A stretch of 64,000 nt of DNA from Acidicapsa dinghuensis (lineage in GTDB: Bacteria > Acidobacteriota > Terriglobia > Terriglobales > Acidobacteriaceae): NCBI RefSeq assembly GCF_025685685.1, contig NZ_JAGSYH010000007.1:1-64000 (forward strand), read 5' to 3'. Shown here piece by piece: positions 52,710 through 58,357 of this stretch. The position numbers and the translations under genes were made by a program. Below the pieces are notes generated by a model, which saw nothing but the letters and a program-made list of their open reading frames with translations, had not been told where the DNA came from and did not search any database. Each line of letters starts with the position of its first letter. Position 1 is the stretch's first letter.

Positions 52710-53774
52710 CTATTGATCTCCGGCTGCCCAGTAGTTTTCACGCGCAACAACATGCGCGCCATAGTCCTGCGTGAGCCGTACGTGAAGCGTGTGCAGCCCC
52801 GGAGTTGGGTCCGTAGGCGTAAAACTCAGCATGTAACGGTTCCGGACATGCTTGGACATCTCGTCGATCCGGTCCTCAAATCCCTTATCCCGAGTAAAAG
52901 GCGCGTACTCCCCACCACTCATCAGGGCAATCTCTTTAGGGATATTTTTCTTAAGCGCCTGCGTCACCATCAGCAGCGTACTGATGAGGCTCATGGTGCG
53001 CTGATCGCCGCTATCTTTCACATCATGAAGGAATTCCGCCCGCGACGGCGAAAATGTCAGGCTCAACACCAGCACGTCACTCAGGCCGATCCGTTGCACC
53101 AGTTTCTCGGGCCGTATGTGGCTGCCGCCGTGTTCGCGCGGTTCACTGATTAGCAGCAGAACTCGCCGGTATTCCTTGGGCTGGGTCCGTAAAATATCGA
53201 CCGCGTAGCTGATGGTGTCCAGAATCGCATCTCCTCCATCGCCGGGGTCGAAATGGCGAAGATCGTCCGTCAGATCCGCCTCGGATTGGGTGAAATCTCG
53301 GACCAGATGCGGCTTGGAATCAAATCCCACAAGCGCCGCTTCACTCTTTCCATCCCCTAGAAAAAGATCGAGCAGCGGCCCAAGTTTGGCTATTTTGTCG
53401 AATTCCAGCCCTGCCATCCGCCCCTGCTCGACTGCTACCACCAACGCCACTGGAGCGGTATCCATGTCTTCTTCCACATGCAGTTTCTGTGGAACGCCGT
53501 TATCGGTAAGCTCAAAATCCGTCGGCTTTAATCCGTAAACTACATCGCCATGGTCTTTTTCTACCAGCGTCGGAACGAGAACGACGTTAGTGGTCGCGTG
53601 CAGCACCGTCTGGCCACCGTCCGGCGACGGCAGCGCCTTGGGTGGCTCAGGTGGAGGCAATTCCTGGGCTCTCGCCTGAAAAATACTCACCCCAACGGTA
53701 ACGACAGTCAATATGAGCAATCGGTATCGTCCGAACCTACCTGTGGGGCCAGTCGCCCCAACCCAGCGAACCAT
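52710..53774 (-). CDS. exported VWA-domain protein
   Basis: A 354-residue protein with a signal/anchor (about 15-36, LLILTVVTVGVSIFQARA) and a von Willebrand factor A-like domain. The segment VVYGLKPTDFELTDNGVPQK followed by VALVVAVEQ is the pattern of Acidobacteria VWFA proteins, but the canonical metal site DxSxS is replaced (VAVEQGRMAG). Function unknown. The gene stands alone. Confidence 0.8.
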   Translation of the reverse strand: MVRWVGATGPTGRFGRYRLLILTVVTVGVSIFQARAQELPPPEPPKALPSPDGGQTVLHATTNVVLVPTLVEKDHGDVVYGLKPTDFELTDNGVPQKLHVEEDMDTAPVALVVAVEQGRMAGLEFDKIAKLGPLLDLFLGDGKSEAALVGFDSKPHLVRDFTQSEADLTDDLRHFDPGDGGDAILDTISYAVDILRTQPKEYRRVLLLISEPREHGGSHIRPEKLVQRIGLSDVLVLSLTFSPSRAEFLHDVKDSGDQRTMSLISTLLMVTQALKKNIPKEIALMSGGEYAPFTRDKGFEDRIDEMSKHVRNRYMLSFTPTDPTPGLHTLHVRLTQDYGAHVVARENYWAAGDQ

Positions 53775-53863
53775 GCACTCTCCCGCATTCCATCGAATTG
53801 CTTCTATTCAAGAAGATTAGACGACTCTTGCCACTGAACAGGTCGCTTAGGCAACATCCGGCA

Positions 53864-55153
53864 TTATGCGTCTGGCTTCGGTGTCCCGTCAGGACGAGGC
53901 TGAGGAGCTGTTCCCGGACTACCCGGCACAGCAAACGGAGCATAAGGGTCAGAGACAGGTTGCTGCGGCGCATTAGAGCTCGGCTGCGAAACAGGCCGTC
54001 GCGCCGTGTCGATCGCGCTGCGAATGGCGAAAAACGCCGGCGTTGGACGATACTCGTCGTCAAAGGGCAGTGGCCGCTGGCGTGATCCATCTGGCCGGAT
54101 TGTCCAAGGCTGCCGGATCTGGTTCAGCCATGTGTGCGCATCCGTAATGCCCCAGGTAAGAAAGGCCTTCACATTGGGCTCTGCCAACACCATTCCCAGA
54201 TAGCTCTTGTAGACCTCGGCAACTGCTGCGTCCTGCACATCGGAACCGCCTTCGAGCTGGTGGGTATTCACATCCATCTCTGTGATGTAGACCTCAAGCC
54301 CCAGCTTAGCGACCTCACGAATCAGGCTAAGAAGACCCGAACCTGGTTTAGGGCCGGTTGCCTGCAGATGGCTCTGAATGCCGATGGCTTGAATCGGAAT
54401 ACCGCGCGCCACCAGCCGCCGCACCAGCAGCAGCACCTGCCCGCGCTTCGCTGTCTGCTCCGGAGTATCGAGCTCAATGTCGTAATCGTTGTAAGTCAGC
54501 TTTGCATGTGGATCGGCCTTGGCCGCGGCGGTAAACGCCAACTCAATGTATGATGGCCCGATCAATTGCAGCCACGGCGAGTTGCGCAAACCATCCGGAC
54601 GGCTATCCTGCAGGTACACCGCTTCATTCACTACATCCCAGCTATGCACCCGGCCTGCGTATCGTCCAGCTACAGTTTGAATATGCTGCGTCAGCAGAGA
54701 TGCCGCATTATCCTTCGTCGCCACAGAAGAAAACCACGCCGGCAATTGCTCATGCCAGCAAAGGTTATGTCCGCGTACCTGCTGTTGATATGCGGCGGCA
54801 AAGGCAAACAGCTTATCGGCAGGGGTGAAGTTGTAGGTGGATGCAGTCGGTCGTAAACTCGACCACTTCATCGCGTTCTCCGCGACAAGAATTCCGGCCT
54901 GCTCCGCGACGGTTCGGGTATAAGCCTCGGCGTCCGGGCTTGCGTTGCCTTGATCAAAATCCAGCAATTCCGGCACAACGGCGCAACCTGTAAGGACTCC
55001 CGCGGCAGCACCATGCGCTCGCAGTGAATTTGGGCCATTCACATCCGGCCCCGAAGCAGGGGCGAACCGGCGCTCGGCGAGAAGAGGCGGGCACAAAGCA
55101 GCCGCTGCCGCCATCCGGCTGAATCGCCTGCGTGTCCACAGAAGACGGGACAT
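53864..55153 (-). CDS. GH10 endo-1,4-beta-xylanase
   Basis: A 429-residue exported xylanase that cuts xylan in the backbone. The GH10 acid/base is E177 in SWDVVNEAV and the nucleophile is E292 in YITEMDV; NAMKWSSLRP and HNLCWHEQLPAWF give the substrate subsites. The N-terminus TRRRFSRMAAAAALC could be a Tat or Sec signal. The C-terminal about 40 residues are Pro/Gln-rich with no module recognised. Confidence 0.94.
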   Translation of the reverse strand: MSRLLWTRRRFSRMAAAAALCPPLLAERRFAPASGPDVNGPNSLRAHGAAAGVLTGCAVVPELLDFDQGNASPDAEAYTRTVAEQAGILVAENAMKWSSLRPTASTYNFTPADKLFAFAAAYQQQVRGHNLCWHEQLPAWFSSVATKDNAASLLTQHIQTVAGRYAGRVHSWDVVNEAVYLQDSRPDGLRNSPWLQLIGPSYIELAFTAAAKADPHAKLTYNDYDIELDTPEQTAKRGQVLLLVRRLVARGIPIQAIGIQSHLQATGPKPGSGLLSLIREVAKLGLEVYITEMDVNTHQLEGGSDVQDAAVAEVYKSYLGMVLAEPNVKAFLTWGITDAHTWLNQIRQPWTIRPDGSRQRPLPFDDEYRPTPAFFAIRSAIDTARRPVSQPSSNAPQQPVSDPYAPFAVPGSPGTAPQPRPDGTPKPDA

Positions 55154-55178
55154 CTGTCTCCTTTGCCTCCTGAGCCAA

Positions 55179-55403
55179 TTAGCGGCTGCGCTTCACAGCT
55201 CGCTCCAGTTGACCGGTCCATGCCAGAAAGCTAAGGAGTTCCTTGCGCGAATCCCACATGAATGCAAAAACATCCCGTGCGGTAAGCACCTCGGCTTTCT
55301 TGCCGGAATAGGTCTCGATCCGCCACTTCAGAAACTCACTCTTCCATGGCGTCAGACGCGCGCCACGCGTGGCGTTCCAGAGAAATCGTATCGAGGCAAA
55401 CAC
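55179..55403 (-). CDS. small conserved-looking protein
   Basis: A 74-residue basic protein (FLWNATRGARLTPWKSEFLK, FAFMWDSRKELLSFLAWTG). No signal or motif. It lies 25 nt upstream of the xylanase and could be co-expressed with it. Family unknown. Confidence 0.6.
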   Translation of the reverse strand: MFASIRFLWNATRGARLTPWKSEFLKWRIETYSGKKAEVLTARDVFAFMWDSRKELLSFLAWTGQLERAVKRSR

Positions 55404-55479: not shown

Positions 55480-56373
55480 CTATAGCTTGTCGAAGAGACT
55501 TCCCTGTCCCAGCGCGGCTATCACGTTAATCAAAGCCGTTTGCTGCGACTCGGATAACGAGAGCTGCGATGAAACCTGAGCAACATCTGCTTGCATCAGG
55601 TTAGTCTGCACCGTTGTCAATTGCGTTTGCTGATCTGTAATCGCGCTTGAAGCATTCTTGAGACGTGTGATTGAATTATCGATCGTCACACGCTGCTGGC
55701 TGAGGTAATTGATTGCATCATTCAATGCCGAGGTGTCCGAAACACCGCTGCCCGAACCGCCATTGGCGTAATCGGCTACTAAATTGTTCAAGGTACCCAG
55801 CACATTGGCCGTCGAAGAAAGAAAGACCTGATTACCCGGCAGATTCAGTTGAATTGACTGACCATTCGGAGTCTGAAGCGTATTCACATCCGAGTCGCCG
55901 CTGTACGTCACTGTTGCTGGCGTCGTCGAACTGTTCAACGAAAACGGACTGGTCGAGCTCTGGCCGCCTGCGAAGATGTACACGCCCTGATAGCTCGTAT
56001 TCGCCAGCGACACCACCTCATCGCGAATACCCGCCAGTTCGTTGGACACCGATTGCAGATCGCTCGAGTTCAACGTACCGTTATTCGCTTCTGTAGCCAG
56101 CGACAATGCCTGCGTCAGTTGCGTTACGACACTGCCCAGTGCGGAATCCGTCACTTGAAGCATGCCCGTGGTCAGGCTTGCCGTCTGCGTAAACGAGTCA
56201 TCCTGCTGGATACTGTTGAGAAATTGCACATTCTCCGCCGATGCGACAGGATCTTGCCCAATCGAGTTCACCCGCAGCCCGCTCGAAAGCTCCTGGCTCA
56301 GATTCTCCTGAGTAGCCTGCGCCTGATCCAGAGCTCCGCTCAGGTTGTACACATAAAAGGGATCGACTCGCAT
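55480..56373 (-). CDS. flgL: flagellar hook-filament junction protein FlgL
   Basis: FlgL (HAP3) joins hook and filament. The 297-residue protein has flagellin-like D0/D1 helices at both ends: N-terminal LDQAQATQENLSQELSSGLR and NSIGQDPVASAENVQFLNSI, C-terminal MQADVAQVSSQLSLSESQQT followed by ALINV. The central region is Ser/Thr-rich. It starts 34 nt after the stop of the chimeric gene that occupies the flgK position. No other flagellar gene is in the window. Confidence 0.9.
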   Translation of the reverse strand: MRVDPFYVYNLSGALDQAQATQENLSQELSSGLRVNSIGQDPVASAENVQFLNSIQQDDSFTQTASLTTGMLQVTDSALGSVVTQLTQALSLATEANNGTLNSSDLQSVSNELAGIRDEVVSLANTSYQGVYIFAGGQSSTSPFSLNSSTTPATVTYSGDSDVNTLQTPNGQSIQLNLPGNQVFLSSTANVLGTLNNLVADYANGGSGSGVSDTSALNDAINYLSQQRVTIDNSITRLKNASSAITDQQTQLTTVQTNLMQADVAQVSSQLSLSESQQTALINVIAALGQGSLFDKL

Positions 56374-56407: not shown

Positions 56408-57442
56408 TCACGACACAGCCGTCTCTACACCAAGGTTCAACGCTGAGGCATACACAGTGTTCAGGATGGTGAACGTCTGCGACGCAGCTTGATATGCCCG
56501 TTGAAACTGTTCCAGGTTGCTTGCCTCTTCATCGAGGCTCACGCTCGAAAGAGAACTGACCTGCGTCTGAAGCTGTGTCACCGACGCGCTCAGTGCCTGG
56601 CTTTCGGTCGTCGTCTGCGAAACCGTTGCACCTAGGGTGCTGACAAGATTCGCGTAGAAATTCGTGGGCGTCTCACCGTTGATGATGTTCTGCGAGCCAA
56701 GGTTCGCAGCTGTCACCGCATTCGAATCGTCTCCTGTCCCATCTCCCAGCCCGGCGGCGGCTATTTTATTGGGGTCTGTCATCACCACATGCATGGCGGC
56801 AGCACTGCCGGCTACGTGTGTAGGCGCGGCAAAAATATTGCCGGCGTTGCCGTTATCTCCATCGAGATCGGTTCCCACGATGTTCGTCGTCTGCGCCGGC
56901 TCCATATGCCATACAGCATCCAGCAGCTCGACACGTGAAACACAGTGCCCGCGATTCAGCATCAGATGCTCCAACAGGGCAAATTCTTTGTTAGTCAGGG
57001 AAATCGCGTTACCCGCACGCCGCACAGCATGATCCAGCCGGTCGAGTTCCAGGTCGCCCGCGCGCAGTGTAAGCTTCGTCTCTCGCTTGCGCCGCAGCAG
57101 TGCCCGGCAACGTGCGCGCAGTTCATGCAGGCTGAACGGCTTCACCATCAGATCGTCGGCGCCAAGATCAAAACAGCGAATACGCGTTTCTACCTCCTGC
57201 CGCCCAGTCAGCACCAGCACCGGAAGATTCGAATCCATCCTGCGCAGATGGCCAAGCACCTGCTCTCCATCCAGCACTGGCAGATTCAGATCCAGAATCG
57301 CGAGATCCGGCATTTCGCGCTGCAGCGCCAGCATTGCCACCCCCCCGTCCTCCGCGCGGCTTACCCGATGCCCATCCGCCTCCATACCGCGGGAAAGAAA
57401 CTTCACCAGAGCCAGATCATCTTCCACGACTAGAACTTTCAT
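56408..57442 (-). CDS. response regulator/FlgK chimera
   Basis: A 344-residue protein from ATG 57442. Residues 1-118 are an intact receiver domain (D8, D9, phosphoacceptor D51, T79, K101) and about 122-189 are the first half of an OmpR-type winged helix (NKEFALLEHLMLNRGHCVSR). After HMEPAQTTNIV (junction near DNA 56876) the sequence turns into the C-terminal part of FlgK: NFYANLVSTLGATVS, then SLSSVSLDEEASNLEQFQRA and the D0 tail. The recognition helix and wing of the DNA-binding domain are missing, as is the N-terminal part of FlgK. The gene order is flgK-like then flgL, so a deletion in flagellar DNA is the simplest explanation. It is a fusion, not a frameshift artefact of my reading: the frame is open throughout. 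A misassembly remains possible. Confidence 0.85.
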   Translation of the reverse strand: MKVLVVEDDLALVKFLSRGMEADGHRVSRAEDGGVAMLALQREMPDLAILDLNLPVLDGEQVLGHLRRMDSNLPVLVLTGRQEVETRIRCFDLGADDLMVKPFSLHELRARCRALLRRKRETKLTLRAGDLELDRLDHAVRRAGNAISLTNKEFALLEHLMLNRGHCVSRVELLDAVWHMEPAQTTNIVGTDLDGDNGNAGNIFAAPTHVAGSAAAMHVVMTDPNKIAAAGLGDGTGDDSNAVTAANLGSQNIINGETPTNFYANLVSTLGATVSQTTTESQALSASVTQLQTQVSSLSSVSLDEEASNLEQFQRAYQAASQTFTILNTVYASALNLGVETAVS

Positions 57443-57715
57443 CCTGCCACTCTCCACGCCCGCTTCCTATGCGCTCAACGTCCCGCCATCCAACCGTTGC
57501 TGAAGGTCATGCGGCGGCTACATCCACACAGTCACCTGAACACGCAGCATGGCTCAAGCAAAAAACCGGCATCACGCACAGCTCTTTCCAGGATTGGGAG
57601 AAGCTCAGACAGATTCCCGAAAAGCGACCGATCCCGGGACACTCTGAAGAAAATCCAATGCGCAACCCTATTCAACCTGCACCGTTAACTAGGGAAAGGA
57701 CAGCGAAGATTTTTC

Positions 57716-57751: not shown

Positions 57752-58357
57752 ATGGCTGTCACGCGAAGACAAAAAGAGGTACTCGATTTCCTTGAAGCGT
57801 TCGTTACCAGCAACGGTTATTCGCCTTCTTTCGAGGAGATCGCACGCGGTCTTGAGCTTAAGTCCCTCGCGACTGTGCACAAACACATCTCAAATCTTGA
57901 GCGAAAGGGCCTGTTAGACCGGGTTCACAACCGCAGCCGCTCCATCGATGTGGTTCCGGCGGGCACGCGAACTCGAACCAGTGACCGGCTACCGCTGATG
58001 GGCCGCATCGCAGCAGGCCTGCCTGTCGAAGCCGCAGAAAACTCCGAGAGCATTTCGCTGCACGATGTCGTGGGCAACAAAGATGTCTTCGCGCTCGAAG
58101 TTCGCGGAGACTCCATGCGCGATGAGCACATTGTTAATGGCGATTATGTCTTGGTCGAGCGCACGCGAACCGCGCGCCAGGGGGAGATTGTTGTTGCTCT
58201 CGTGCGTGGCGCAGAGACCACGCTGAAGCGTTTCTATCTGGAAGGTAGCCAGGTGCGCCTGCAGCCTGCAAACCTGGAAATGGACCCCATCTTCGTCCCA
58301 GCCAGCCAGGTCTCGATTCAAGGGCGTGTACTGGGCGTGCTGCGGCGTTATAGATAG
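57752..58357 (+). CDS. lexA: LexA repressor
   Basis: LexA represses SOS genes and cleaves itself when RecA is active. The 201-residue protein has a winged helix (YSPSFEEIARGLELKSLATV at about 23-42), the cleavage bond A88-G89 in RIAAGLP, nucleophile S121 in RGDSMRD and K159 in TTLKRF. The start is ATG 57752 (MAVTRRQKEVLDFL); the longer frame from 57716 adds residues read through the promoter. Confidence 0.96.
   Translation: MAVTRRQKEVLDFLEAFVTSNGYSPSFEEIARGLELKSLATVHKHISNLERKGLLDRVHNRSRSIDVVPAGTRTRTSDRLPLMGRIAAGLPVEAAENSESISLHDVVGNKDVFALEVRGDSMRDEHIVNGDYVLVERTRTARQGEIVVALVRGAETTLKRFYLEGSQVRLQPANLEMDPIFVPASQVSIQGRVLGVLRRYR

Follow-up and report, generated by a model that had tools for sequence, protein, structure and literature searches.

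A regulator–FlgK fusion frame in Acidicapsa dinghuensis as the very probable joint of a single flagellar cluster deletion

Introduction

Two described losses of flagellar genes provide the closest parallels to the locus reported here. In Escherichia coli K-12 and B, the Flag-2 cluster has been lost and only two terminal remnants, fhiA and mbhA, are kept, according to the available part of the source (PMC3032704). In Xanthomonas fuscans 4834-R, 33 kbp of the flagellar cluster has been deleted and the strain is non-motile; the available sections of that report describe no fused frame (PMC3826837). A fusion of a receiver domain to FlgK was not found in the literature on such fusions, which is not proof of its absence, and no relevant literature on the loss of flagellar genes or motility in Acidobacteria was found. 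Here, we describe a frame in the genome of Acidicapsa dinghuensis that joins a response regulator to the C-terminal part of FlgK and that is, very probably, the joint of one deletion of ~31 kb that took nearly the whole flagellar cluster.

Results

The window analysed here comprises bases 1–64000 of contig C15 of the A. dinghuensis genome (6.17 Mb in 17 contigs, 98.9% complete). An earlier note, made from the letters alone, had described a receiver domain, a cut winged helix and the C-terminal part of FlgK in one frame before flgL, and searches with Pfam and NCBIfam models confirmed both the description and the position, on the minus strand. The frame (56408–57442, minus strand) encodes 344 amino acids from the ATG at 57442, which is the more likely start (an alternative in-frame GTG lies at 57457), and it runs without an internal stop codon to the stop codon at 56410–56408. 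The OmpR-family regulator part (56876–57442, minus strand) contains a complete receiver domain of the OmpR/PhoB type (Response_reg, PF00072; residues 8–116, numbered from the GTG as are all Pfam positions given here; 84.2 bits; profile positions 1–109 of 111). Its key residues (DD, the D of ILDLNLP, the T and the K of VKPF), to which we ascribe the usual catalytic and signalling roles of receivers, are the same as in the alignment of the relatives. The winged helix ends where the recognition helix begins: Trans_reg_C (PF00486) matches residues 149–194 with profile positions 1–46 of 77 only, and the complete winged helix with recognition helix that belongs to the OmpR/PhoB family is not present in the chimera.

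The remainder of the frame (56408–56875, minus strand) consists of the last 155 residues of FlgK plus the stop codon. When the C half alone was compared with the NCBIfam model flgK_ends, it matched with an E value of 7.6e-19 over model positions 339–437 of 437, reaching the last model position; its score stays under the cut-off set for the whole protein, which is usual for a fragment. Two Pfam models of flagellar C-terminal helices match just above their cut-offs (Flagellin_C, residues 270–342; Flg_bbr_C, residues 303–342). Of the N- and C-terminal D0/D1 parts that make up FlgK, the chimera thus holds the C-terminal end only. An intact flgL (55480–56373, minus strand) lies 34 bp downstream and matches TIGR02550 with 140.6 bits, against a cut-off of 127.2. 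The AlphaFold2 model of the chimera is poor (mean pLDDT 53.6, pTM 0.26). A sequence search of solved structures with the chimera gave only regulators among the matches listed (60 of 217), and a plasmid search with the FlgK half gave a single match, flgK of Granulicella tundricola (38.7%). Upstream of the chimera, good alignment to the relatives is confined to the lexA end, so that its promoter is not assignable.

The earlier note had explained this frame by a frame-keeping deletion between a regulator gene and flgK, and the relatives bear this out, holding the two as separate, complete genes with a flagellar cluster between them. As the note had proposed, the halves were aligned separately. 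The separate regulators of the relatives G169 and G197 share 77% and 75% identity, respectively, with the N half, and their separate FlgK proteins share 80% and 76% with the C half; these identities lie far beyond chance. In G169, the counterparts lie on contig C2 at 525309–524743 (regulator) and 493069–492605 (FlgK). Five genomes of the same genus carry both genes on one contig, always on one strand, with a gap of 31.1–33.4 kb between them: 31,673 bp in G169, 31,115 bp in G197, 32,967 bp in G102, 31,455 bp in G131 and 33,355 bp in G183. In the other nine of the 14 relatives, the two genes are split between contigs or no FlgK was detected, and these genomes are uninformative on the distance.

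The flanks of the gap in G169 and G197 are those of the window. On the upstream side, the regulator lies next to a divergent lexA, beyond which come trx, thrB, thrC and modA; the lexA-like gene that marks this flank of the deletion (57752–58357, plus strand) is 92% identical to that of G169. On the downstream side, FlgK is followed by flgL, a small open reading frame, a VWA-like gene, rpsO and pnp. In the window, the stretch at 52710–55403 (minus strand) holds a 74-residue open reading frame, an endoxylanase-like gene and the VWA-like gene, with rpsO and pnp beyond, in the same order as in G197. The one exception concerns the xylanase-like gene, which is in place in G197, whereas its sole trace in G169 is a weak match on the opposite strand. 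The labels lexA-like, endoxylanase-like and VWA-like, and those of other genes for which no family search was made, are our presumptive assignments. The 74-residue frame (55181–55403) has no NCBIfam match; it is kept after flgL in all six relatives compared, at 55–76% identity.

What the gap contains was read from G169, in which 26 of the 30 scanned open reading frames could be assigned to an NCBIfam family at E ≤ 1e-5, a few with scores under that model's own cut-off, and 24 of these are flagellar or chemotaxis families. The flagellar families are FlgB, FlgC, FlgD, FlgE, FlgF, FlgG, FlgH, FlgI, FlgM, FlhA, FlhB, FliA, FliE, FliF, FliG, FliH, FliI, FliJ, FliM, FliN, FliP and FliR; the chemotaxis families are CheX and CheY. 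A protein with a c-di-GMP-binding domain and an NtrC-type activator account for the other two matches, and the remaining four scanned frames have no NCBIfam family match. The scan left out at least three longer frames, among them one at the FliK position. An intact cluster therefore stands between the same flanks in relatives, with the flanks compared in G169 and G197 and the cluster genes named in G169 only. Matches to the rod-type domain lie within ~3 kb of the regulator in seven of seven relatives (named FlgB and FlgC in G169 only); therefore, the lost regulator may, to go by its neighbours, have served the flagellar cluster. If it did, its loss may have cost little beyond the loss of the cluster itself.

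The change-over from regulator to FlgK lies at 56874–56880 (minus strand). In the regulators of all 14 relatives, TTNIV is followed by DVY(I/V)NYLRRKL and then by the wing; at the same point, TTNIV in the window leads into FlgK sequence (TTNIV-GTDLDGDNGNAG). Nothing is inserted at the weld, which joins the two genes directly. About 2 bp (GG), read by eye from the relatives, are common to both sides, and the overlap could slightly exceed this value, given that the ancestor's own letters are not available from the relatives. Within 60 nt of both break points, shared exact words reach no more than 6 bp in G169, 8 bp in G197, 7 bp in G102 and 8 bp in G131. A repeat-mediated deletion was considered and rejected, as none of these shared words stands at the joint on both sides; as read from these letters, the joint fits illegitimate end joining or slippage. 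That it is in frame is unsurprising, because the genes share a strand, so that a third of the possible deletions between them would keep the frame.

As read from the assembly, the joint might come from two misjoined contigs or from a skipped, unassembled cluster, but such an artefact is very improbable. The genome is nearly complete and in few contigs, and genes for FlhA, FliP and rod-domain proteins were found nowhere in it. Moreover, the joint lies within a 363 kb contig, ~57 kb from its end, and the exact words shared between the break points in the four relatives are just 6–8 bp long.

The continuous frame is confined to the host genome, one of 15 genomes of the genus. A conserved new protein, for which the earlier note would have taken the same chimera in several genomes as support, was rejected on this count. 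Each of the other 14 genomes has a regulator with a complete winged helix and no FlgK attached. A separate FlgK was seen in 11 of these 14 at the threshold used; the three exceptions are G183, whose FlgK is cut by a contig end, and two fragmented genomes, G203 and G206. The search beyond the genus used the C half only, the fused regulator being assessed within the genus; among 200 genomes of the family, 98, counting that of the host, gave a match. All five named relatives that the FlgK half matched are MAGs of the Acidobacteriaceae. G017, a one-contig genome of the same family, has a short FlgK frame that was examined as a possible second chimera and rejected. This frame arises from a frameshift inside flgK (L110, G017:C1:2593951), and FliP is present in that genome; early decay, phase variation or a sequencing error are possible causes of the frameshift.

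The host genome was then compared with its relatives for the genes of the cluster. No FlhA and no rod-type N-terminal domain were found in it, both of which are present in seven of seven relatives searched. FliP was likewise not found; it is present in G169 and G197 and in nine of 11 genomes overall, a set that took in seven genomes with short FlgK frames and G191, and the other miss is G096. As far as FlhA, the rod domain and FliP represent it, the cluster is absent from the rest of the genome. The C-half query matches one place, which leaves no second FlgK in the host genome, and no close replacement for the regulator was found there, the next best regulator being 44% identical. A second flagellar locus is present on contig C9 (L095: 6391–12219) with fliS, fliD, fliC, motA and motB; these five genes are open and collinear with G169, and the locus also includes an open reading frame that we take to be FlbD-like. 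The export gate and basal body thus appear, from gene content, to be gone, with the filament, cap, chaperone and stator genes kept. These results support the earlier suggestion that the frame is a scar of motility loss. They do not support the suggestion of a phospho-controlled hook or filament subunit, since no FlhA, FliP or rod-domain protein turned up in the genome and the N-terminal half of FlgK is missing.

A single chemoreceptor signalling domain (MCPsignal) is left in the host genome (G000:C13:675943–676488). A FliA/WhiG-type sigma factor above the family cut-off lies outside the flagellar loci identified here (G000:C16:88246–88911; L111: 8151–9020); it is 46–54% identical to the three of G169 and is not clearly the fliA of the cluster. 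Extra FliA/WhiG-type sigma factors above the cut-off number two in G169, with none in G197 and G102.

Selection on the host's own branch was estimated with a branch model of five genomes, with the tree shape fixed by hand from identities. The test was run gene by gene first and the chimera halves were pooled afterwards. The single-gene test excluded three alignments in which fewer than five genomes were represented, and the pooled controls excluded rpsO, the 74-residue frame and the ABC gene. For the pooled halves, omega is 0.107 on the own branch versus 0.045 elsewhere (2ΔlnL 4.54), a weak result given saturated synonymous sites; own-branch values from ~0.05 to 0.2–0.3 are not rejected, and setting omega to 0.5 worsens the fit by 8.05. 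For seven control genes, pooled, omega is 0.057 on the own branch versus 0.063 elsewhere. The 2ΔlnL drops to 3.09 once FlgL joins the pooled halves. Neither half is significant singly (2.09 and 1.43), and FlgL is not significant either; omega is not raised on the own branch for FliD, FliS, MotA and MotB, and the FlbD-like frame and rpsO have a higher omega there that is not significant. Branch lengths at the upper bound, a sign of saturation, were obtained for the 74-residue frame, the VWA-like gene, thrB, modA, FliS and the FliC of G169.

In the single-gene test, which covered 19 genes, FliC alone rose above 3.84, toward more constraint on the own branch, a signal that is probably due to the divergent FliC of G169. 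This protein (L096, 9056–10453) is 63–65% identical to the FliC of the host genome, G197, G102 and G131 (L104–L106), and the FliC proteins of the latter three are 79–83% identical to that of the host. Replacement of the flagellin in G169 is a possible reading of these identities.

Taken at face value, the omega values weakly suggest that constraint acted along most of the branch and was relaxed only briefly, toward its end, as is expected if the deletion is recent. The persistence of an intact flgL and an intact second flagellar locus makes it probable that the deletion is recent when set against the divergence from the closest species sampled; the intact flgL, fliC, fliD, fliS, motA and motB, together with the only mildly relaxed constraint, suggest a recent loss. 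The little time that these intact genes imply would also suit a deletion that arose in laboratory culture and not in nature, a variant compatible with the deletion explanation. We regard it as possible but doubtful, since the mild excess of amino-acid changes in the chimera halves on the own branch suggests that some time has passed, although this excess is not decisive.

The same branch bears on whether the chimera could be a retained functional protein, in which the FlgK helices would be controlled by the phosphorylated receiver; such a protein might, for instance, partner FlgL or flagellin in the cytoplasm. Taken as a whole, the branch departs strongly from neutrality, as the poor fit of an omega of 0.5 indicates, and the receiver residues are unchanged in a frame without stops. 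However, the branch probably mostly predates the deletion, such that past constraint tells little about the chimera, and the pooled halves are slightly relaxed. With the chimera seen in a single genome of the genus, and the export and rod genes not found in that genome, we consider a retained function highly unlikely.

Discussion

In the deletion that we favour, one end of the cut would lie within the recognition helix of an OmpR-family regulator, which heads the cluster, and the other within flgK, at the cluster's opposite end; both genes had the same direction and the cut would have happened to keep the frame. Lacking recognition helix and wing, the regulator part would have lost DNA binding. 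We infer that the chimera can be neither exported nor built into the hook–filament junction, because the export gate was not found, and the cell would be non-motile. If made at all, the chimera would stay in the cytoplasm with no selected role, and any expression would perhaps come from the old regulator promoter, together with flgL. We conclude that it is a genuine deletion-fusion gene that probably has no function. There is very little likelihood that the deletion gave rise to a young fusion that is made from the regulator promoter, receives phosphate from the old kinase and uses its FlgK helices to act in the cytoplasm; binding of leftover FlgL or flagellin, or holding of the kinase, would be conceivable acts of such a protein, and just as improbable.

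The locus offers a clean example of how a single step can remove a complex machine; both break points can be placed to within a few bases, in a genome that still carries an intact second flagellar locus with flagellin, cap and stator genes. It also holds a caution for annotators, as a combination of receiver and FlgK domains can stem from deletion and not from selection.

In its domains, the chimera has the receiver and the first half of the winged helix in common with PrrA (1ys6), a response regulator of the OmpR/PhoB family. Regulators of this family keep the recognition helix and wing, whereas the chimera has FlgK sequence there. As a deletion, the locus resembles the loss of Flag-2 in E. 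coli, in which, by the part of the account at hand, the whole cluster is likewise gone and broken genes from both ends are left; the remnants there are two pseudogenes of flagellar genes, whereas here the two ends make up a single open frame, with a regulator as one of the partners (PMC3032704). The deletion in X. fuscans 4834-R, as far as the available text describes it, is of similar size and likewise removed cluster genes in one block, but an insertion sequence replaces the lost genes there, in contrast to the direct gene-to-gene weld found here (PMC3826837). Judged against these partial accounts, flagellar deletions with remnants at their boundaries are already known, and what is unusual here is the single open frame and the regulator as partner.
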